Source: Sediminihaliea albiluteola
Lineage (GTDB): Bacteria > Pseudomonadota > Gammaproteobacteria > Pseudomonadales > Halieaceae
Assembly: GCF_014077625.1 (NCBI RefSeq)
Contig: NZ_JACFXU010000017.1
Coordinates: 62,001-126,000, forward strand
Reading direction: 5' to 3'
Length of the DNA stretch: 64,000 nucleotides
The translations under genes were made by a program, and so were the position numbers. The stretch's first letter is position 1, and each line of letters begins with the position of its first letter. Below the pieces are notes generated by a model, which worked only from the letters and a program-made list of their open reading frames with translations, did not search any database and was not told the origin of the DNA. Of this stretch, positions 42,181-50,958 are shown one piece after another.

Positions 42181-42537
42181 AGGTGTAGGCTCTATAAAGT
42201 GGCGCTCACCCTAACGCTGAGTAATCTTGGGGTCAACTTTAGGCCTCTGGAAGGTCATGGTATCCCTAAGTTATTGTTATAAAAGAGAAAAATAAGCTTA
42301 TAAACCCATCTTTATTTGCATTGCTGCGGCCAATGTTTTATGATAGACGACTGTTTGCAATTCATTGTTTAATTTATTTGTGGAACACATGGCGCTTTTA
42401 CATATCGTAGTTATTAAGAACACCCTTCCCCCTTAGCTCGGGCAATTTCACCTGCCCGGCACTTCTTAGCGCCGTTTTATTTTTCTCATAATTTAATAAT
42501 AGTGCCGCCGTTTTGTTGCAGCGGCCACAGGAGAGTT
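42181..42537 (+). promoter_or_regulatory. AT-rich leader region upstream of the Rnk-like gene
   Basis: This 357-base gap between divergent mutY and the Rnk-like gene is AT-rich. It contains a possible 15-codon frame (ATG 42389 to TAG 42434-42436) followed at once by a 6-bp hairpin CGGGCA / TGCCCG (42439-42458), a leader-peptide-like layout. No promoter was placed with confidence. Confidence 0.3.
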
Positions 42538-42918
42538 ATGTCTGTCAGTTGGAGTAGTAGGTTAGAGCAGTATTTGTTGTTGCACGGTCCGCAGGTTTAT
42601 CTGCAACCACTCAGCCTGTCGCGCGTGTTGAGTCATTTGGAGCGCAGCGATATGGACAATCCCAGTGATCAAAGCGCAGAACAAGTGATAGAGCCAGGCT
42701 CCCAGGTAAAGTTGCTGGATAAGAGTAGTGGTGAATTACTGGATTTGCGTATTGCCGTGCCGGGTAATCGAGTAAAGCATGATTCCGGCCTGTCGGTTTC
42801 GGCGTTTTCCCCTTTAGGCAGTGAGTTACTAGGGTTAAAAGAAGGTGAGTCTGCCGTGGTTAGTGTACTGGGCATCAGGAGCAAGTTCTTCGTTTCTAAG
42901 ATAGAAGCTCCTGCTTAA
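42538..42918 (+). CDS. GreA/Rnk-like C-terminal domain protein
   Basis: This 126-residue protein has a C-terminal half resembling the GreA/GreB C-terminal (FKBP-like) domain as found in Rnk: GSQVKLLDKSSGELLDLRIAV and SPLGSELLGLKEGESAVVSV. The N-terminal half is short and lacks the coiled-coil of GreA. Rnk-type proteins bind RNA polymerase and modulate transcription or nucleotide metabolism, but the exact role here is open. The ATG at 42538 has AGGAGAG seven bases upstream. It has no close partner gene and converges on the flavoprotein gene that ends at 42948. Confidence 0.7.
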   Translation: MSVSWSSRLEQYLLLHGPQVYLQPLSLSRVLSHLERSDMDNPSDQSAEQVIEPGSQVKLLDKSSGELLDLRIAVPGNRVKHDSGLSVSAFSPLGSELLGLKEGESAVVSVLGIRSKFFVSKIEAPA

Positions 42919-42947: not shown

Positions 42948-44402
42948 TTAGTCTTCGTGGTACCGCCGAACAATCTCTAGCTGCTGTCGAATCAGCGGAT
43001 CTTCCACTTCTTCTAGTAGTTTTACTACCCGCCGGAATACCCAGCGCTGCCCTTTTTCGATGAGCGCCATACGCTCTTCAAAGGATTCAAGCGCCATGAC
43101 TTTGCCATAGAAATCACCGACAGCATTACCGGGTTTAGCATCAAGATGTGCTAGGCAGCGCAGTAAGGCTCGGCAGCAAGTGACTTCTTGTTTATGCAGT
43201 TGCCGCAGCTCTGTGCGCGACTCTTGGTCGTAGGCGATAGCTTGGCAGGCTGCTGCAACGCGCGCCCCAGCCCTTTCGGCGGCTAATAATTCGAGCAGTG
43301 CAGCAATGACTTGCTCTTTACTTATTTGGCCAGCGAGCTCTGGCGCTACAGCGGCTGGGCTGTTGGCAGGATGATCGCTCTCTGGCTGCAAGCGAGACAG
43401 AGTATTGCAGGCTTCCTGCATCATTTGCGCCATGCGCTCAGCAACACTCGTAACCTGGTGAATCTGGTTGCATGACTGGCCCGCGTAGAGCGCCATTGCA
43501 CTGATGCTCCCAGTGGCATCGCGCAGTGGCGAATCCGTGGAGAAAATCGGAATGGCCTGACCGTCTTGTTCGGCGATGCTAGGGGCTTGTTGCAGGTTGC
43601 GCAGGTGGTCGTATTCGCCATTAGTGACGCTGTTGGGCAAAACGCGCACCGCAGCGGCCATCGGCCAATTGCGAAAAAATCGGTGGCTGAGCAAGGTGTC
43701 TTCAGCATGGGCGCGACAGAGGCGCTGTTGATGCAGGGGGTGTGCGTTTGATTCCTCAGTGGCAAGGAATAGCGAACCACAGCTGACGCCTTGCGCACCT
43801 AAGGCTATGGCTGCAACCAAGCCTGCACCGCTGGCGATACCTCCACTGGCAACCACGGGGACCGGTGATAGCGCTGCCAACTCGGGGACTAATGCCAGGG
43901 TGCTGACATTGCCGCGCACATGGCCACCGGCCTCCACTCCCTGGGCGATTAATACGTCGACCCCAGCCCGCAAGGCGCGGTGTGCGTCATCTCGGGACCC
44001 GACTTGGTGTAAGACCAATATATCCTGTTGTTTTAGCTCCTGAATGAGCTCTGAGTCGACATCCCAGAACAGTGCGATAGCCGGCACCTGGAGTTCGATG
44101 CAGCAGTCTATTTGCTGTCGCAGTAGAGCTGGCTCGGTAGCTGCCGGGATGAGGTTGACAGCAAATGGCCCTGTGCTGAGCTTGCGCAATGCCGCAACCT
44201 CTTCGCGGATACGAGATACGGGTTCGCGGACCATGCCCAATGCGCCAAAGCCGCCGGCATTACACACAGCTGCCGCCAGTGCGCTGCGCGCCACGCCGCC
44301 CATGCCGGCGTTCATGACTGGAACTTCGCAGCCCAGCAGCTCAAGCAGCGGCGTGTGTAGCGATAAGGGTAAGGATTCTCTTTGATAAGTTACCATTGCC
44401 AT
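42948..44402 (-). CDS. Nitronate monooxygenase-like flavoprotein with C-terminal helical domain
   Basis: Residues 1-330 match the nitronate monooxygenase / 2-nitropropane dioxygenase family: PVMNAGMGGVARSALAAAVC, VLIAQGVEAGGHVRGNVSTL (FMN-phosphate and catalytic His), and VVASGGIASGAGLVAAIALG. The C-terminal 130 residues form a helical extension, with LLELLAAERAGARVAAACQA and IEKGQRWVFRRVVKLLEEV, similar to DUF6306, a four-helix domain. NMO proteins oxidise nitroalkanes, but many paralogues have other flavin-dependent roles. It is the last gene of the sulfite reductase/DsrE operon; its start overlaps the preceding gene by 13 bases. Function in this context is unknown. Confidence 0.8.
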   Translation of the reverse strand: MAMVTYQRESLPLSLHTPLLELLGCEVPVMNAGMGGVARSALAAAVCNAGGFGALGMVREPVSRIREEVAALRKLSTGPFAVNLIPAATEPALLRQQIDCCIELQVPAIALFWDVDSELIQELKQQDILVLHQVGSRDDAHRALRAGVDVLIAQGVEAGGHVRGNVSTLALVPELAALSPVPVVASGGIASGAGLVAAIALGAQGVSCGSLFLATEESNAHPLHQQRLCRAHAEDTLLSHRFFRNWPMAAAVRVLPNSVTNGEYDHLRNLQQAPSIAEQDGQAIPIFSTDSPLRDATGSISAMALYAGQSCNQIHQVTSVAERMAQMMQEACNTLSRLQPESDHPANSPAAVAPELAGQISKEQVIAALLELLAAERAGARVAAACQAIAYDQESRTELRQLHKQEVTCCRALLRCLAHLDAKPGNAVGDFYGKVMALESFEERMALIEKGQRWVFRRVVKLLEEVEDPLIRQQLEIVRRYHED

Positions 44403-44770
44403 ACCTGATCGACACTGTTGTAAAGGGAGGCGAGCGCTTTGCGTGGCAGGCGTTGCAGGCCTTTGATTGATGGCTTTTGAGCAAGACCGCGCTCAACTAA
44501 AGCTTCTTCGACCACTGACACAGTGACGCCGCTATCGATCAAAGCTTGCAGATCTTGCTCGATGTTTGCCGGGTGACTTTGTTGCCAATGGCCAAAGCGC
44601 AGCGGTGGGAGATGGCCCTGCTGTACGGCATAATAAGCCGCGTTGCCATTTAGCAACAGATGTAGCTCAGCGCCTACCGCTCGCATTGAGCGGCTTAACC
44701 ATAAAATAGTGTCGTCTTGCTCTTCCCCTGTAGCGCGAAAAGCTTGTTCAACGATTTGCAGTACTTTCAT
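44390..44770 (-). CDS. DsrE-fold protein, TusC/DsrF-like
   Basis: This 126-residue protein has the DsrE/DsrF-like fold. The N-terminal strand and helix KVLQIVEQAFRATGEEQDDT are followed by GAELHLLLNGNAAYYAVQQG, typical of small sulfur-relay subunits without a conserved Cys, as in TusC and DsrF. Start: ATG at 44768-44770 with an AAGGTAGAG box upstream; a TTG at 44788 is less likely. It is four bases from the Cys-containing DsrE-like gene and overlaps the NMO-like gene by 13 bases, so it belongs to the cysJI operon. Homology is at fold level; exact function is unknown. Confidence 0.72.
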   Translation of the reverse strand: MKVLQIVEQAFRATGEEQDDTILWLSRSMRAVGAELHLLLNGNAAYYAVQQGHLPPLRFGHWQQSHPANIEQDLQALIDSGVTVSVVEEALVERGLAQKPSIKGLQRLPRKALASLYNSVDQVWQW

Positions 44771-44774
44771 AGCT

Positions 44775-45188
44775 CTACCTTGTTCCAATGACTAGGGTGT
44801 TATCAGCAGCGCTGGCAAATTTCCATAAGTCTGCCGGCGAGCCGCGTCCGCAACCAGAAATGACTTCGTTCACACCGCGCTCATCAACACATAGGCCGCA
44901 GTTAATCCAGTCAAAAGTCAGTCCGCGCTCCTTGGCTTTTTGCTGCAGGGCAGCGATCCACTGGCGACTCAGTGGATGGGCTTCCTCATCAACACCGCGG
45001 CCGTGGACGCTGTTGCCGTGTGCTTGCTGCTTGGAAAAAGCTAGGGCTACGGCACCTTCATAGGCAAATACTTTGATATTGGCTCCGGCCTCTAAGCTAG
45101 CTTCAAGCAAGCGAAAGAAGGTGGTGGTGCGCTCGCTTTCAAAGGGTGGATCCATAAAAGCGAAAGTGAGTGTTTGTGCTGTGCTCAT
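44775..45188 (-). CDS. DsrE-fold sulfur-relay-like protein with candidate active-site Cys (TusD/DsrE-like)
   Basis: This 137-residue protein has a DsrE-like layout. The N-terminal strand reads LTFAFMDPPFESERTTTFF. The INCGLCVDERGVNEVISGC segment aligns with the TusD block that ends in CVxxALRRGV, so it carries a candidate sulfur-accepting Cys (CVDERG). Such proteins accept persulfide sulfur and pass it on. It has its own ATG at 45186-45188 with GGAG upstream, and a 63-base gap separates it from the previous small DsrE gene. It is followed after four bases by a TusC-like gene. This pair plus the upstream 108-residue protein may form one complex (inference). Confidence 0.75.
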   Translation of the reverse strand: MSTAQTLTFAFMDPPFESERTTTFFRLLEASLEAGANIKVFAYEGAVALAFSKQQAHGNSVHGRGVDEEAHPLSRQWIAALQQKAKERGLTFDWINCGLCVDERGVNEVISGCGRGSPADLWKFASAADNTLVIGTR

Positions 45189-45251
45189 TGCGGTTCTCCG
45201 AATGTACTGATAACAAGACGCGGCCCAGTCTGTTCTAGTTTGAGGCTGGGT

Positions 45252-45578
45252 TTAGTGCCAAATAACTTTATCCCCAGCGAGTAATGCTTCAGCCACTAGA
45301 TCGAGATCGGCGGCAACTATGCCTGGATGTAACTCCTCCTCCTGGATTTGGCGCTCATGCAGGGCAAAGCGATCGGCATAAAGCTCTACATCAGACGATA
45401 GTAATTGCTGGAAAGCCGAGTTTTGTGTGCCCTGATGAGCAACAGTTGTGCCGTGCTGCACTAACAGCATGCGCACTGGTACACCGCTGTCGACCAAGTC
45501 TTTGGCGAGGGCGTAATGCTGCTCGGCGGCAGGATCATTAAAGGGGCTCTGGGATTGGATGATGAAATAGCGTTTCAT
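45252..45578 (-). CDS. Small DsrE-fold protein
   Basis: This 108-residue protein is predicted to have a DsrE-like fold: KRYFIIQSQSPFNDPAAEQHYALAKDL, a first strand and helix, and then VPVRMLLVQHGTTVAHQG. It has no Cys residue. DsrE-fold proteins act in sulfur transfer, often as hetero-oligomers. It begins within the stop of cysI (four-base overlap, 45575-45578), so it is tightly coupled to the sulfite reductase subunit. Together with the two downstream DsrE-like genes it forms a trio. The assignment rests on pattern and context and should be verified by profile search. Confidence 0.65.
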   Translation of the reverse strand: MKRYFIIQSQSPFNDPAAEQHYALAKDLVDSGVPVRMLLVQHGTTVAHQGTQNSAFQQLLSSDVELYADRFALHERQIQEEELHPGIVAADLDLVAEALLAGDKVIWH

Positions 45579-47317
45579 GGTTTGTCCTCCACAACTGGAA
45601 TCATTCTCTGAGGGTCACTGCCGTGCTTGATAGCGGTCGTCAGGCCACTACGAAGGAGGAAGTCACCGAAGTGTTCGCTGCCGTTACGCTCCGCTGCAAA
45701 GCGCGCTAGCAGCGGCTCAATAAGGGCGAAGCACTGGTCAATACTGACATTGCTGGCGTGAAGCCGATTGAGACGCTCGCCGTGAAAGCCGCCGCCTAAG
45801 TAGAGGTTGTACAAACCCGGGGCGCGTCCAGTGAGTGCGATTTCGGCGATATAAGGTCGTGCACAACCATTGGGGCAGCCGGTAATGCGCAGGGTGATTG
45901 GTACCTCATCTAAACCATGACGAGCTTTAGTGCTTTCAAAGCGCTGCAGCAATTCGGGCATGATGCGCTCGGACTCCGCCATGGCCAGTCCGCAGGTGGG
46001 CAGGGCTACGCAGGCCATGCTGTAGGCCGATTGCAGGGTGGCAGATAAGCGCGGTAGTAAGCCGAGGTCATCGAGTCGCCATTGAACGGTTTCTACGAGG
46101 TCGGGCTCGATGCCAGCGAGAATTAAATTTTGGTTGGTAGTCAGCTTGATGTAACCAGGAAAAGACTGGGCGAAGCCCTGCAGCTGATCTTGTAATGCGC
46201 CATCAACACGGCCGTTGGCGATGTTCAGTGTGGCGTGCCACAGTCCCTCGGAGTCTTGTTGCCAGCCGGGTCTGTCACCGTTATGAGTGAAGTGGTAGGG
46301 CTTGGCGGGCGCCAAGGCTTCACCCCAGCGCTCTTGCAGTAAGGCATTAAAGTTATCCATGCCAAGACGGTCGAGGGTGTACTTAAAGCGGGCTCGGTGA
46401 CGATCGACGCGGTCACCGTAGTCGCGTTGAATGCCCATAATGGTCAGGGCTAAGTCCGGTGCCCGCTCTGCCGCGACATAGCCGATAAGCTCGGCTAGGC
46501 GTGGGTAACTGTCGTCTCGAGTATCTAGTTGTCCCATGCCGCCACCGACTACGACGTTGAAGCCCTGCAAATCGTCGCCATCGGCAATGGCGATAAAACC
46601 CAGATCCTGGCCGTAGACATCGATATCATTACTAGGTGGCAAGGCGTAGCCCACTTTGAATTTGCGCGGCAGGTAGGTTTCGCCGTAGTGGGGGTCTTCA
46701 TTTTGCTCGCGGTAGGGAGGGTTCTCACCGTACCAAATTTCGCGGTAGGCACCGGTTTTGGGAATCAGCAGTTGGCTCGTTTGACGCGCTAGGCTAGCGA
46801 CCTCGCGTTGTACATTGGCACTGCTGGGGTTAAATCCGCAGATAACGCCGCGAGAGTCGTCGCCGCAGGCTGCGATGGTATCTAGACCAATGTCTCTGAT
46901 CGCTTGCATGCAGGCGCGCAGCTGCGGTTTGCGAATGCCATGTAACTGAATGGTTTGGCGGGTAGTGATGCGCAGACCGCGTTCAGCAAAGCGTCGCGCC
47001 AGTGCGTCTAGCCCAAGCCACTGTCCCGTGCTGGCAATGCCGCCGGGTAATCGCAGGCGCACCATGAATTGATGATTGGGCTCCAGTTTGCGTCGCTGTC
47101 GCTCGGCCCGTTGGTCGCGATCATCTTGCATATAGATGCCGTGAAACTTCATCAGCAAAGTATCATCGTGAGATACGGCCCGTGTGCTGCGATCCTCTAA
47201 GCCCTCGGAGATGCTGCCGCGCAAGTAACGGCTACCTGCTTTAAGCTGTTCGTTGCTGTTGAGTTGACTGACAGCTTGAGATCGGTCGCGACTGCGGTCT
47301 ATGGATTTTTCTACCAT
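45575..47317 (-). CDS. cysI: Assimilatory sulfite reductase hemoprotein beta subunit
   Basis: This subunit reduces sulfite to sulfide with siroheme and a 4Fe-4S cluster. It has 580 residues. Cluster and siroheme ligands are in MACVALPTCGLAM (C-x5-C) and ITGCPNGCARPYI (C-x3-C). The N-terminal ferredoxin-like half shows HQFMVRLRLPGGIASTGQWLGL and the sulfite-binding TTRQTIQLHG. The ATG at 47315-47317 has GAGG about six bases upstream. The gene lies eight bases after cysJ and overlaps the following small DsrE-like gene by four bases, so it is tightly integrated into the operon. It is of the assimilatory CysI type, not DsrAB. Confidence 0.93.
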   Translation of the reverse strand: MVEKSIDRSRDRSQAVSQLNSNEQLKAGSRYLRGSISEGLEDRSTRAVSHDDTLLMKFHGIYMQDDRDQRAERQRRKLEPNHQFMVRLRLPGGIASTGQWLGLDALARRFAERGLRITTRQTIQLHGIRKPQLRACMQAIRDIGLDTIAACGDDSRGVICGFNPSSANVQREVASLARQTSQLLIPKTGAYREIWYGENPPYREQNEDPHYGETYLPRKFKVGYALPPSNDIDVYGQDLGFIAIADGDDLQGFNVVVGGGMGQLDTRDDSYPRLAELIGYVAAERAPDLALTIMGIQRDYGDRVDRHRARFKYTLDRLGMDNFNALLQERWGEALAPAKPYHFTHNGDRPGWQQDSEGLWHATLNIANGRVDGALQDQLQGFAQSFPGYIKLTTNQNLILAGIEPDLVETVQWRLDDLGLLPRLSATLQSAYSMACVALPTCGLAMAESERIMPELLQRFESTKARHGLDEVPITLRITGCPNGCARPYIAEIALTGRAPGLYNLYLGGGFHGERLNRLHASNVSIDQCFALIEPLLARFAAERNGSEHFGDFLLRSGLTTAIKHGSDPQRMIPVVEDKP

Positions 47318-47325
47318 GGGGTACC

Positions 47326-49104
47326 TCAATACAGGTTGCGTTTAATGCGACCGCCGCTGACTAGTGCTTTCCATTCCTTAGCGCTGCTGGCCTCGCACAA
47401 GCCATTAGCTTTAGCGTGGAGCGCTTGTATGCGCTGTTCGCATCGAGTCAAGGTGGCCTTATCGCCGCACAGGTAAATAATTGCCCCCTCCGCCAGCCAT
47501 TGCTGCAGCCGCTCTTCTTGCTCATTGAATACGCAGCCGAGCTCTCGTCGTGGCAGGTCATCGGCAAAAACCGGGTCTAGGTGAGTGAGCGCGCCACTTT
47601 CGAGCCACTTTTGCCATTCGCTTTGGTACAGGAAGTCTTGTTCGTAATACTGCTCTCCCAGTACCAGCCAGCAGGGGTTGCTATCACCCCGGGCAGCGCG
47701 GGCCTGTAAATAGGCCCGGTAGGGCGCAAGGCCTGTGCCGTAGCCAATTAAGATCACTGGCTCTGTTCGTGGGCTCAGGGCAAAACGGGGGTTGCGGTGG
47801 GGGTAAATGCGTACGCTATCACCTAGGCCTAGATTGCACAGGTAGTGCGAGGCGATGCCCGGATGGACTTGATTGCCTAGGGTGTAGTCAAAACGTTTAA
47901 CTAAGAGATGTAATTCGTCTTGCTCTGGGTCGATATAGTTGGCCACATCGTAGAGTCGGGGCTGTAGTGGGCGTAAAGCATCTACCAGTGCTTGCGCATC
48001 GGGTACTTGAGCAGGGTAGTTTTGGAGTAGGTCCAGCACATGATGCTGCTTGAGCCAGTTGCGCAGTTCTTTGTTATCTTCCACTAGGGCAGCAAGCGCA
48101 GCGTTGTCACTCCACTGGGCCCATTGCAGCAAGAGATTTTTTCCTGGAATAGCTAAATCGCGCTGTTCGCTCAGGGCATCTACTAAGCGTAGCTTTTGCT
48201 CAGCTATTTGAACTTCAGCATCCGCTGCTAAGGCAGTGCAGTCCAAAACGGCTGCAACGAGGCTGGCCGGGTTGCTTGCCAAAACCCCCACGGCGTCACC
48301 AGGCTCCAGCGGCATACTACCCTCGTCCAGAGCAAGGCTGAGGTGGTAGTTGCCATGTTCGCGTGACGCTTCAGATAGGCAGAGCTGTTCTAGCACTTCA
48401 CTGTGCATGGGCTGCTGCTTGCTGTAGGTAGTGCCTGCTGCCTTCGGACTTGAGGTGACCACTGCGATGGCCGCTTGTTCGCCGGCTTCGGGAAGCTCTT
48501 CTAATCGGGCTTGCAGCCAATTTTGTGCGCTACTTTCAAAGTCGACGTCGCAGTCCAATCGTTCACTGATTCGACGCGCACCTAGTGCGGCCAAGGCCAG
48601 ATCAATATCGATGCCAGTCTGACAAAAACGCTCATAACTACTGTCGCCTAATGCCAGAACCGCGAACTCTAAGCCCTTGAGTTCCAGTTTTTCTGTGGCC
48701 AGTAAGTCGCGGTGAAAGTCGATGGCCCCTAGTGGTGGATCGCCATCGCCGTGAGTACTGGTAATTAACCAGAGTGTTGTTAGCTTGCGCAGCTGGCGCA
48801 CTTTCAACTCTGCCAAATCGATGAGTTGTGCGGCGTGTCCGGCGGCGAGGGCTTTTTGCTGTAGTTGCCTTGCTAGCTGTTCGCAATTACCGGTCTCGCT
48901 GCCATAGGCAATAGTAATGGTCTGGGCCGCGGCACTGGCTGCGGCGCTAGGAGCTGGATCATTAGCGGTGGCGCGGGCGGCTAAATAGCCACTGAGCCAC
49001 AGTGCCTGAGAAGCCTGCAGCGGTTGCAGTAGTTGATGAATATGCTGCCACTGCTCTGTAGGGAATATGTCGGCTGGCGGCACTGGGCTTGTGCAGGCGG
49101 TCAC
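47326..49104 (-). CDS. cysJ: Assimilatory sulfite reductase flavoprotein alpha subunit
   Basis: This subunit passes electrons from NADPH through FAD and FMN to CysI. It has 592 residues. An N-terminal flavodoxin domain shows TIAYGSETGNCEQLARQL and WLITSTHGDGDPP. The FAD part shows LYDVANYIDPEQDELHLLVK, and the NADPH part shows PVILIGYGTGLAPYRAYLQ and YLCGDKATLTRC. It starts at a GTG (49102-49104) with AGGAG seven bases upstream. A promoter with TTGACC and a 17-base spacing lies just ahead. CysI follows directly. A LysR-type regulator is divergent and likely controls this gene. Confidence 0.93.
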   Translation of the reverse strand: MTACTSPVPPADIFPTEQWQHIHQLLQPLQASQALWLSGYLAARATANDPAPSAAASAAAQTITIAYGSETGNCEQLARQLQQKALAAGHAAQLIDLAELKVRQLRKLTTLWLITSTHGDGDPPLGAIDFHRDLLATEKLELKGLEFAVLALGDSSYERFCQTGIDIDLALAALGARRISERLDCDVDFESSAQNWLQARLEELPEAGEQAAIAVVTSSPKAAGTTYSKQQPMHSEVLEQLCLSEASREHGNYHLSLALDEGSMPLEPGDAVGVLASNPASLVAAVLDCTALAADAEVQIAEQKLRLVDALSEQRDLAIPGKNLLLQWAQWSDNAALAALVEDNKELRNWLKQHHVLDLLQNYPAQVPDAQALVDALRPLQPRLYDVANYIDPEQDELHLLVKRFDYTLGNQVHPGIASHYLCNLGLGDSVRIYPHRNPRFALSPRTEPVILIGYGTGLAPYRAYLQARAARGDSNPCWLVLGEQYYEQDFLYQSEWQKWLESGALTHLDPVFADDLPRRELGCVFNEQEERLQQWLAEGAIIYLCGDKATLTRCEQRIQALHAKANGLCEASSAKEWKALVSGGRIKRNLY

Positions 49105-49124: not shown

Positions 49125-49170
49125 ATAATTTAAGGCGTAGGAAGTATGGTCAAGTGCTTTAATAATTAAA
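49125..49170 (-). promoter_or_regulatory. Promoter of the cysJI operon with adjacent LysR-type operator
   Basis: On the minus strand TTGACC (49148-49153) is followed after 17 bases by AATTAT (49125-49130), in front of the cysJ GTG. Just upstream of the -35 box lies a perfect 13-bp palindrome TTTAATAATTAAA (49158-49170), a good candidate site for the divergent LysR protein. The reverse strand has TATAAT at 49178-49183 for the regulator gene. Confidence 0.55.
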
Positions 49171-49216
49171 AATGAAATATAATGGTCTTTAAACTCAATT
49201 TAATTGCAGTTAAATA

Positions 49217-50071
49217 ATGGATATCGAACTCGCGCGTACTTTTCTTGAGATAGCCCGGGCTGGCAGTTTTGTCGCCGCAGCGGAGCGTTTGCACCTTACC
49301 CAGACCGCGGTAACTGCGCGGATTCAAAAATTAGAGGCGCTACTCGATAGTCGTTTGTTTTTGCGCAACCGTGCCGGCGCCCGTTTAACAGCGGAGGGCG
49401 AGCGCTTCACGGTGCACGCGCTGCAATTGGTACAAGCCTGGGATAAAGCGCGCAGCGATATGGCATTGCCTCAGGGCCATCGGGCGCGCTTGTCGGTAGC
49501 TGCTGAAGCCAGTTTGTGGCAGCCCCTACTGTTTAACTGGATTTGTTGGATGCGAGAGCATCAGCCAGAGGTGGCGCTGCATGTTGAGGTAGATAATGCC
49601 GAGTCACTGTTTCAGCGCTTAGAGCAGCGCATGCTCGATTTGGTGCTAGTTCACCGCCCAGATTACTTTCCTGGCCTGCAGGTGGAGCAGTTAGTTGAAG
49701 AGAAGCTGATCATGGTGCGCGCGCCCCAGGATGACTCCCCCTATCTATTTGTGGACTGGGGGCCAGAGTTTGTCGCGCAACACGATGTGGCCTTGCCGGG
49801 CAAGCGCGGTGCCGCCTTAAGCTTTAATTTTGGTCCCTTGGCATTGCAGTATTTATTGGAAGTTGGCGGCAGTGGCTATTTCCGCAGCCGAGTAGTACAG
49901 CGACATCTCAATCAGCGCAGCTTGCTGCCAGTCGCGGGAGCGCCGGAATTCACCTACCCAGTTTATGCTGTGTTTGCCACTGACAGCCCCAGCAGTCCTC
50001 TGCTTAAAGCCCTGGAAGGGGTTCGCTCTGTAGCAAGTGAAGGGGGCGACTGGAGCTTGCCCGTAATCTAG
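49217..50071 (+). CDS. LysR-type transcriptional regulator
   Basis: This 284-residue protein has an N-terminal winged helix-turn-helix: MDIELARTFLEIARAGSFVA, AAERLHLTQTAVTARIQKLE and SRLFLRNRAGARLTAEGERF. A periplasmic-binding-protein-like effector domain follows (about 90-284). It is divergent from the cysJI-DsrE-NMO operon and separated by 112 bases carrying a promoter and a palindrome, so regulation of that operon is likely. LysR proteins such as CysB and Cbl respond to sulfur status, but the sequence does not show that this is an orthologue. Start ATG 49217. Confidence 0.85.
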   Translation: MDIELARTFLEIARAGSFVAAAERLHLTQTAVTARIQKLEALLDSRLFLRNRAGARLTAEGERFTVHALQLVQAWDKARSDMALPQGHRARLSVAAEASLWQPLLFNWICWMREHQPEVALHVEVDNAESLFQRLEQRMLDLVLVHRPDYFPGLQVEQLVEEKLIMVRAPQDDSPYLFVDWGPEFVAQHDVALPGKRGAALSFNFGPLALQYLLEVGGSGYFRSRVVQRHLNQRSLLPVAGAPEFTYPVYAVFATDSPSSPLLKALEGVRSVASEGGDWSLPVI

Positions 50072-50190
50072 GCTGTGTGTTGCGGTGTAACTAATTGCGC
50101 TCAGCAGTCTTTGCTACAGCCTGATCAGTGCCTTGATTGGGCTGGCGCGTTAAGATCGAAGTTTTTTGGATTAAAGGATAAAAACATATC

Positions 50191-50958
50191 ATGGCGAGAC
50201 TGGATGGCAAGGTAGCGATTGTTACAGGTGCAGCGCGCGGGATGGGTGAAGCCACCGCAAGATTGTTGGTGGAGCAGGGCGCGAAAGTGGTGCTGGCAGA
50301 TATTCTAGATGATGCCGGTGAGGCAGTGGCACAGGATCTGGGTGATGCGGCGATCTATGTGCACTTGGATGTGACCGACAGCGCCCAGTGGCAAGCGGCA
50401 GTCACCGCCTCTGAGGTGTTTGGCCCGCTGAATGTCTTGGTCAACAACGCGGCCATTTTGATTCATAAAACCATTATGGATACCACAGAAGATGACTTTA
50501 TGGCGGTGGCAAGGATTAACCAGCTGGGGGTGTTCCTCGGCATGCAGTCTGTCTTTGAGGCGATGAAAGCCGCCGGTGGTGGTTCCATTATCAATGTTTC
50601 ATCCATTGACGGTATGCAGTCCAAAAACTCGCTGCTGGCTTATTCGGCCAGTAAGTGGGCGGTGCGAGGTATGACCAAAACCGCTGCGCTGGAAATGGGT
50701 AAATATAATATTCGCGTCAATAGTGTGCACCCCGGTGGCATCTACACCAGCATGCACGGTATGGAGCACATGACTCGCGAGCAGGCCGATGCGATCTACA
50801 GCCAGCAAGCCTTGCCCCGTGTAGGAATGCCGGTTGAGGTAGCCGCGGTGACAGCCTTTTTGGCCTCGGATGAAGCTAGTTATAGCACCGGTTCAGAGTT
50901 TATGGCCGATGGTGGCTGGCATGCCGGGGCAGTGAATTCAGGGCTGCCGCAATTGTAA
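50191..50958 (+). CDS. Short-chain dehydrogenase/reductase
   Basis: This 255-residue classical SDR has VAIVTGAARGMGEATARLLV (cofactor-binding T-G-x3-G-x-G), NVLVNNAAIL, catalytic Ser in SIINVSSIDG, and Y-x-x-x-K in LAYSASKWAVRGM. The acidic residue after strand 2 (VVLADILDDAG) suggests NAD preference. The sequence resembles the 3-alpha(or 20-beta)-hydroxysteroid dehydrogenase group. The substrate is not determined; a steroid or cyclic alcohol is a possibility. It is monocistronic, between the LysR gene and hisB. A 7-bp inverted repeat (50944-50965) spans its stop codon. Confidence 0.85.
   Translation: MARLDGKVAIVTGAARGMGEATARLLVEQGAKVVLADILDDAGEAVAQDLGDAAIYVHLDVTDSAQWQAAVTASEVFGPLNVLVNNAAILIHKTIMDTTEDDFMAVARINQLGVFLGMQSVFEAMKAAGGGSIINVSSIDGMQSKNSLLAYSASKWAVRGMTKTAALEMGKYNIRVNSVHPGGIYTSMHGMEHMTREQADAIYSQQALPRVGMPVEVAAVTAFLASDEASYSTGSEFMADGGWHAGAVNSGLPQL

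Follow-up and report, generated by a model that had tools for sequence, protein, structure and literature searches.

The operon described here raises the question of why a sulfite reductase should be encoded together with three small proteins of the DsrE fold, since assimilatory sulfite reductase is usually seen as a source of free sulfide for cysteine synthase. It lies on the minus strand, at positions 42948-49104, of a 64,000-nucleotide stretch (the window) of contig NZ_JACFXU010000017.1 of Sediminihaliea albiluteola, and consists of cysJ, cysI, three DsrE-fold genes whose products are herein called A, B and C, and a gene for a flavoprotein related to nitronate monooxygenase (NMO). A preliminary description of the locus had suggested that sulfur from sulfite reduction is handed on as persulfide to another acceptor, an interpretation which as a whole was partly supported by the present analysis. 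The answer we favour, tentatively and at somewhat less than an even chance, is a mobile accessory operon in which a dedicated sulfite reductase dependent on reduced nicotinamide adenine dinucleotide phosphate (NADPH) is joined to a three-subunit DsrE-fold sulfurtransferase like TusBCD or DsrEFH, the sulfide made by CysJI loading B as persulfide. The operon suggests that the sulfide is made for a dedicated sulfur relay, and not for cysteine alone.

The DsrE-like nature proposed for the three small proteins was borne out, each singly exceeding the Pfam PF02635 cut-off of 22.7 bits (A 32.4, B 35.4, C 28.2). An AlphaFold2 model of B, built from 61 of 84 sequences, had a predicted local distance difference test score (pLDDT) of 92.7. 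In a structure search it was closest to DsrE (2hy5_A; Z 16.6, root-mean-square deviation (rmsd) 1.7 over 116 residues), followed by YchN (Z 16.5) and TusD (2d1p_A, Z 16.0), and the first fold outside the DsrE family scored Z 6.2. When the PDB was searched by sequence with a four-row profile of B, nothing was matched at E <= 1, so the fold of B rests on Pfam and the model. In the latter, C97 stands at the end of a strand ahead of a helix and C100 within that helix; a strand end followed by a helix with CxxC is the layout of the thioredoxin active site. Profile comparison with the Tus proteins of the same genome was weak (C with TusB 63%, C with TusC 26%, A with TusB 23% and B with TusD 6.5% probability), the last of these alignments placing C97 opposite the Cys of TusD; A and C were alike at 96% probability. 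According to the model, B is a DsrE/TusD-type subunit with C97 at the TusD/DsrE active position.

Relatives of B were taken from one GTDB contig scan with the four-row B profile, as the best 80 of 138 matches from two short peptide patterns. Together with the window, a Methylophaga thalassica plasmid, a Paraburkholderia fungorum plasmid and a family relative they make up 84 loci; as the 80 were chosen by similarity to the query, shares of 84 are not natural frequencies, and some loci are near copies (e.g. L012/L025, L007/L041, L013/L085). A, B and C were complete in 83 loci, and the remaining one contained A and B only. In B the residues C97, G98 and C100 (the CGLC motif) were invariant throughout. 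Conserved Cys was absent from A (84 rows) and from C (83 rows), and R12, E16, E17, Q18, D19, W24 and Y47 of C were among its residues invariant in 83/83. The earlier view of a single Cys-bearing subunit was thus right about A and C, but B carries a pair of invariant Cys instead of one. A third Cys of B, C113, was rejected as a marker of the operon, being present in 23 of 25 loci with cysJI but also in 12 of 59 without.

The association of the triad with cysJI was found to be kept across genera. The genes cysJ-cysI stand directly upstream of the triad, in the same order, in 25 of the 84 loci, distributed over gamma-, beta- and alphaproteobacteria, and a divergent LysR gene accompanies 23 of these operon loci; the contigs of the other two (L021, L029) end within cysJ. 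This neighbourhood survey upheld the link of the small genes to cysJI and the regulator that had been proposed. The proximity goes beyond coincidence: neither A, B nor C occurred within about 1.5 kilobases (kb) of the 29 other CysI-matching loci (two of them weak matches) in a 229-genome sample of the class. In a tree of 50 CysI sequences, obtained by a quick search with no bootstrap, the 23 operon rows formed one side of a branch against the 27 others, with a Shimodaira-Hasegawa-like approximate likelihood ratio (SH-aLRT) of 99. Pairwise distances of CysI correlated with those of A, B and C (r 0.88 to 0.94), and distances among the operon proteins correlated likewise (r 0.78 to 0.95; 22 loci in both cases). 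These correlations fit joint inheritance, as expected, and shared descent by itself also lifts r. A tree of the triad, for which 80 of the 84 loci were used (L054 and three near copies omitted), grouped 21 operon triads in a single clade (support 100) and put L045 and L074 elsewhere.

The reading frames of the operon are tightly packed (Table 1). That the six genes share one strand and either overlap or lie no more than 63 bases apart, as initially described, was confirmed from the coordinates: cysJ and cysI overlap by 4 bases, as do cysI and A, the gap of 63 bases between A and B is the widest inside the operon, and C overlaps the flavoprotein gene by 13 bases. B and C are separated by 4 bases if C starts at ATG, and an alternative upstream TTG of C would overlap B. 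The guanine plus cytosine content of the operon is 55.7% against 54.4% for the window, a composition that gives no sign of foreign origin.

Table 1. Genes and candidate regulatory site of the sulfite reductase operon and its divergent regulator, in window coordinates.
Feature	Positions	Strand	Evidence and remarks
cysJ, NADPH sulfite reductase flavoprotein subunit, 592 residues	47326..49104	(-)	Pfam Flavodoxin_1, FAD_binding_1, NAD_binding_1; TIGR01931 3.3e-144, under curated cut-off
cysI, siroheme sulfite reductase subunit, 584 residues	45575..47329	(-)	PRK13504 over cut-off; match to Escherichia coli SiRHP 1.9e-142
DsrE-fold protein A, 108 residues, without conserved Cys	45252..45578	(-)	PF02635 over cut-off; present in 84/84 loci
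DsrE-fold protein B, 137 residues, invariant C97-G-L-C100	44775..45188	(-)	PF02635; AlphaFold2 model; best PDB match DsrE of DsrEFH
DsrE-fold protein C, 126 residues, without conserved Cys	44390..44770	(-)	PF02635; present in 83/84 loci
NMO/FabK-like flavoprotein, 484 residues; DUF6306 = residues 363-482	42948..44402	(-)	PF03060, PF19825; TIGR03151 below cut-off
LysR-type regulator, 284 residues, divergent	49217..50071	(+)	nearest curated model HdfR, below cut-off
Candidate regulatory motif TTTAAA-N5-TTATATTTCATTTTT, lysR-cysJ spacer	49168..49193	(-)	core begins 74 bases ahead of cysJ

The sulfite reductase itself appears normal in its catalytic residues. The window CysI reached 678 bits with the NCBIfam model PRK13504 (cut-off 457) and 634.4 bits with TIGR02041, which is under the curated cut-off of 756.55, and CysJ reached 482 bits with TIGR01931 (cut-off 668). 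In an alignment with the E. coli SiRHP, from which the numbering was counted, CysI retains the cluster cysteines as well as R83, R153, K215 and K217; we take the latter four to be the anion-binding residues and the cysteines to be the ligands of the siroheme/4Fe-4S cluster in SiRHP. The operon enzyme is not the only sulfite-reductase-type enzyme of the organism. Two proteins were obtained when the genome (98.4% complete) was searched with NIR_SIR: the CysI of the operon and a short reductase whose gene lies next to one for DUF934. There was no dsrAB. A short siroheme reductase was also present in 21/21 other operon genomes tested, hence in 22/22 with this one; of the 24 other operon loci the test covered all except the plasmid L012 and the metagenome-assembled genome (MAG) fragments L021 and L029. 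Among 41 genomes of the same family, including that of S. albiluteola, 36 gave a near full-length match of the short type (frames of about 546-591 residues, E <= 3.1e-40), and a match of the operon type was found in none but S. albiluteola itself, the typing being based on match pattern and length, with no tree. Four short reductases that were scanned exceeded no NCBIfam cut-off and gave their top scores with NirA-like models. We regard the short type as the housekeeping enzyme of sulfite reduction, for two reasons: it is almost universal within the family, and the CysI of Pseudomonas aeruginosa, presumably of the same short type, is an assayed enzyme. The assay of P. aeruginosa CysI as a sulfite reductase is described in PMC12688703.

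The operon was absent from this site in 16/16 relatives examined, where yggX-mutY adjoins or is near the his genes; the order in the relative L159 is yggX-mutY-SDR-hisB, SDR denoting a short-chain dehydrogenase/reductase gene, while about 8 kb separate mutY from the SDR gene in the window. Its absence from the site in relatives, together with the copy carried by the Methylophaga thalassica plasmid, points to horizontal movement. One of 57 other related genomes contained a relative of B; in the class the number was 4 of 274 genomes, this one included, with one further weak match. No direct repeats of at least 11 bases were found between 42181-42540 and 50072-50200. A gene with a GreA/GreB C-terminal domain (42538-42918) lies between mutY and the operon; it was not found there in the 16 relatives and may for this reason be part of the insertion. 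The operon cysJI are thus an accessory, horizontally acquired pair, additional to another siroheme reductase, and the presence of that other reductase in all 22 operon genomes examined makes a special use of the operon CysJI likely.

The lysR-cysJ spacer of the window has 112 bases. In the 20 of 23 such spacers that were tested (L026, L027 and L045 being left out for length) the core WWTTCATTAT was found exactly in 18 and within one mismatch in 19, the window being the case with one mismatch and L074 having no such core; 200 shuffles of the spacers gave a mean of 0.37 exact matches, a contrast that is inflated, as the motif was picked after viewing the same spacers and several of these come from sister species. 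The sequence pattern suggests that gamma- and betaproteobacteria have retained a single unit under the control of LysR.

One explanation of these data would be an ordinary back-up, in which CysJI is a spare assimilatory sulfite reductase with its own regulator and the triad is a sulfur-trafficking unit that shares the promoter but receives nothing directly from CysI. The normal residues of CysI are in line with it, and so are the 59 triads of the 84 that stand without cysJI and the different downstream genes of the operon loci. We nevertheless consider it unlikely, as the gene order is conserved over three proteobacterial classes, the frames overlap or nearly so, and none of the 29 other sampled CysI-matching loci has the triad nearby.

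If the sulfite reductase and the triad indeed work together, the following route can be proposed. LysR would turn the operon on and CysJI would reduce sulfite to sulfide; every step beyond the formation of sulfide we infer. The conversion of sulfide to persulfide needs an oxidant, and a CxxC disulfide could be that oxidant, since attack by sulfide yields a persulfide and a thiol. Sulfide may thus attack the oxidised C97-C100 disulfide of B to give a persulfide on C97; as an alternative, B might capture part-reduced sulfur on CysI. A and C would be structural and docking subunits, the three products possibly forming a hexamer. The sulfur of the B persulfide would pass to a further acceptor, and the B dithiol might be re-oxidised by the flavoprotein or another oxidant. 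There is precedent for parts of this scheme: the active Cys of TusD/DsrE is described as carrying the sulfur in both DsrEFH and TusBCD, and that of Allochromatium, DsrE-Cys78, as a sulfur carrier which sulfide can load in vitro (PMC3397948). It is tempting to speculate further that the triad represents a class of DsrE-fold sulfurtransferases not described before, whose thioredoxin-like CGLC site makes protein persulfide from free sulfide through disulfide exchange, as a soluble counterpart of sulfide:quinone oxidoreductase, fed by its own CysJI and re-oxidised by the flavoprotein, so that sulfite would be converted to sulfane sulfur within one operon. This extended version must be regarded as improbable.

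Several observations weigh against a relay fed by CysJI. The 59 triad loci without cysJI show that the triad needs no such partner and is not confined to cysJI. The tree positions of L045 and L074 would allow two captures of the triad by cysJI as a possibility, a single origin being possible as well. The neighbours of the stand-alone triads (38 of 53 upstream and 42 of 54 downstream were scanned) included no family in more than three loci, a number reached by DUF790 in cyanobacterial loci, among the families listed (25 of 60 and 25 of 142), so no telling family is common to the 80 flanking proteins scanned. The Metallosphaera DsrE3A, which also has two Cys, is described as unreactive with sulfide (PMC4175335), and DsrH-Cys20, essential in Allochromatium (PMC3397948), has no counterpart in A or C. 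A Pfam scan found no tusA or dsrC in the operon as acceptor; two tusA-like genes are located elsewhere in the genome, on C5 and C10. Finally, a redox role of the flavoprotein cannot be general, since six operon loci have no NMO-type gene.

The opposite direction of flow would explain the same set of genes differently: the triad would take sulfane sulfur from thiosulfate or persulfides, and the sulfite set free would be reduced by CysJI, both sulfur atoms being recovered. The Metallosphaera DsrE3A and TusA are described as carrying thiosulfate groups (PMC4175335), which agrees with this proposal. Rhodanese, tusA and transporter families match no operon gene in the Pfam scan, and the Allochromatium DsrEFH is described as having mobilised no sulfur from thiosulfate or glutathione persulfide (PMC3397948); this direction seems quite improbable.

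The comparison of the triad with known systems showed both similarities and differences. As in DsrEFH type I of Allochromatium and TusBCD of E. coli, three DsrE-fold genes stand in a row and one of them encodes the main, Cys-bearing subunit. Unlike in these, B has the CGLC pair at the active position, the Cys-bearing gene stands in the middle, tusA and tusE are not adjacent to the operon and dsrAB is missing from the genome; the conserved Cys20 of DsrH in type I is not matched in A or C. The tus operon proper, for which the genome was checked, is separate: tusD-tusC-tusB-tusE was found on C5, with the domains DsrE, DsrE, DsrH and DsrC. DsrEFH type II, described in 2026 for cable bacteria, is a divergent triad reported in 985 genomes, mostly of sulfate reducers, which transfers sulfur via one Cys and stands beside yeeE/yedE and tusA, mostly co-occurring with reductive dsrAB (PMC13293266). 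The present triad is also divergent and DsrEFH-like, but it is accompanied by cysJI or by no constant partner, and so differs from type II in its context; neither yeeE/yedE nor tusA was among the 8 window proteins scanned.

A parallel for the two Cys of B is DsrE3A (Liu et al. 2014, PMC4175335), in which two Cys are likewise conserved, the first at the active position; it differs in having Cys-X7-Cys and being purified as a homotrimer, whereas B has Cys-X2-Cys and two partner genes. Cys-X2-Cys is found in none of the five DsrE groups as they are described in the available text of PMC4175335. With assimilatory CysJI the operon enzyme shares subunits, domains and catalytic residues; it differs in the separate position of CysI in the tree, in its status as an additional copy in 22/22 genomes and in its junction with a DsrE triad. 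No description of a cysJI-DsrE triad operon was found among the listed titles and abstract openings of the open-licence literature, which is no proof of absence from print. The A-B-C triad is a widespread and apparently undescribed type of small sulfur-carrier-like proteins. What it does is of interest outside the present operon too, for triads standing alone are present in cyanobacteria, Nitrospirota, Acidobacteriota, Myxococcota and other groups.

The genes downstream of the triad vary between the operon loci. The NMO-like flavoprotein that had been listed was confirmed and found to carry an additional domain, but it is not a constant member of the operon. Its match to PF03060 (NMO superfamily) is 9.9e-46 and the best curated NCBIfam model is FabK (TIGR03151), below cut-off; the C-terminus matches DUF6306 (PF19825, 7.2e-25; window 42948-43352). 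An NMO-type gene is present in 19 of the 25 operon loci; three of these genes, those of the window, L014 and L045, are fused to DUF6306. In the seven Methylophaga operon loci the NMO is divergent and follows an orphan ccoN and a gene for a small protein of some 80 residues. The six loci without it are five Methylophilaceae and L074, which has DUF6306 alone. DUF6306 was modelled, from a four-sequence alignment, as a bundle of helices whose nearest structural match is mini-bacterioferritin (Z 17.2, with an rmsd of 1.4 over 119 residues), high Z scores being frequent for this shape; E26, E56, C60 and H132 of the fragment are conserved in all four sequences. DUF6306 is thus predicted to be a ferritin-like domain; it was not named in any open-licence paper found. 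This domain is an option and not a core part.

If the flavoprotein were a true nitronate monooxygenase, it could give nitrite, which the siroheme enzyme would reduce to ammonia. The superfamily-level PF03060 match allows this, and enzymes of the CysI/NirA family are described as reducing both nitrite and sulfite (PMC12688703). As the best curated model is FabK and lies below cut-off, 6 of 25 operon loci are without the gene and the triad would be left unexplained, such a nitrogen route is very improbable.

The genes that flank the operon elsewhere lead to the strongest alternative, namely tolerance of respiratory inhibitors. Here the second CysJI would keep sulfur reduction going if cyanide, sulfide or nitric oxide blocked the usual siroheme reductase, the triad would handle sulfane sulfur (e.g. 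toward thiocyanate), and linked oxidases would sustain respiration. A ccoN gene is directly downstream of the triad in 7/7 Methylophaga operon loci, and all 4 Methylophaga genomes searched have two or three ccoN over cut-off and one ccoO, which makes the operon ccoN an orphan. A gene for cytochrome bd subunit I stands beside the operon in the Alcanivorax relatives L019 and L024, and a cbb3 operon follows downstream in Methylobacillus L031 and L032. In total, 11 of the 25 operon loci and none of the 59 stand-alone loci have genes of cbb3 or bd oxidases; the 11 come from three lineages only, and the flanks of the stand-alone loci are shorter (median 17.1 kb, as compared with 20.4 kb). The operon of the window itself includes no oxidase gene. 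In Methylophaga sp. SAT92 (L174:3357-9894), ccoN, DUF934, a short siroheme reductase, a FixG-like protein and a GntR/aminotransferase-type regulator are clustered, an arrangement that we take to resemble the cyanide-inducible cluster PA4129-34 of P. aeruginosa. A grouping of the operon ccoN with that of L174 was rejected, as the former is closer to the main ccoN (83-87%) than to the L174 ccoN (81-82.5%), and this tells against the proposal.

The cyanide-inducible cluster of P. aeruginosa is described as containing the orphan ccoN4 and the siroheme reductase NirA (PMC12688703, PMC8092218, PMC6664145), and P. aeruginosa CysI as severely impeded at 25-50 µM potassium cyanide (KCN) and fully inhibited at 100 µM (PMC12688703). 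The operon resembles PA4129-34 in providing an additional siroheme reductase and, in the Methylophaga versions, an orphan ccoN as well; it differs in having CysJI for NirA, LysR for MpaR and the extra DsrE triad. Tolerance of respiratory poisons as the purpose of the operon is on the whole unlikely, and it could be combined with a relay. If the relay from CysJI to B is real, it would mean that sulfur from sulfite is directed to persulfide carriers in some bacteria, for another product or for respiratory-poison tolerance.

The flanks of the operon loci (75 of 89 proteins, from 16 of 25 loci) contained no further constant partner among the families listed (25 of 128). Seven of the 25 operon loci (L017, L018, L019, L020, L023, L024, L045) have a DUF488-type gene beside the operon, and none of the 59 stand-alone loci has one.

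As to the stand-alone triads, they are retained in three cyanobacterial endosymbionts of Epithemia/Rhopalodia and a close relative, L040 (loci L035, L038, L039, L040), and in the genome of L035 both Pfam DsrE matches are triad genes. Relatives of B were present on four plasmid records of Paraburkholderia fungorum, and the stand-alone triad of the P. fungorum plasmid L013 lies amid metal P-type ATPases and merB.

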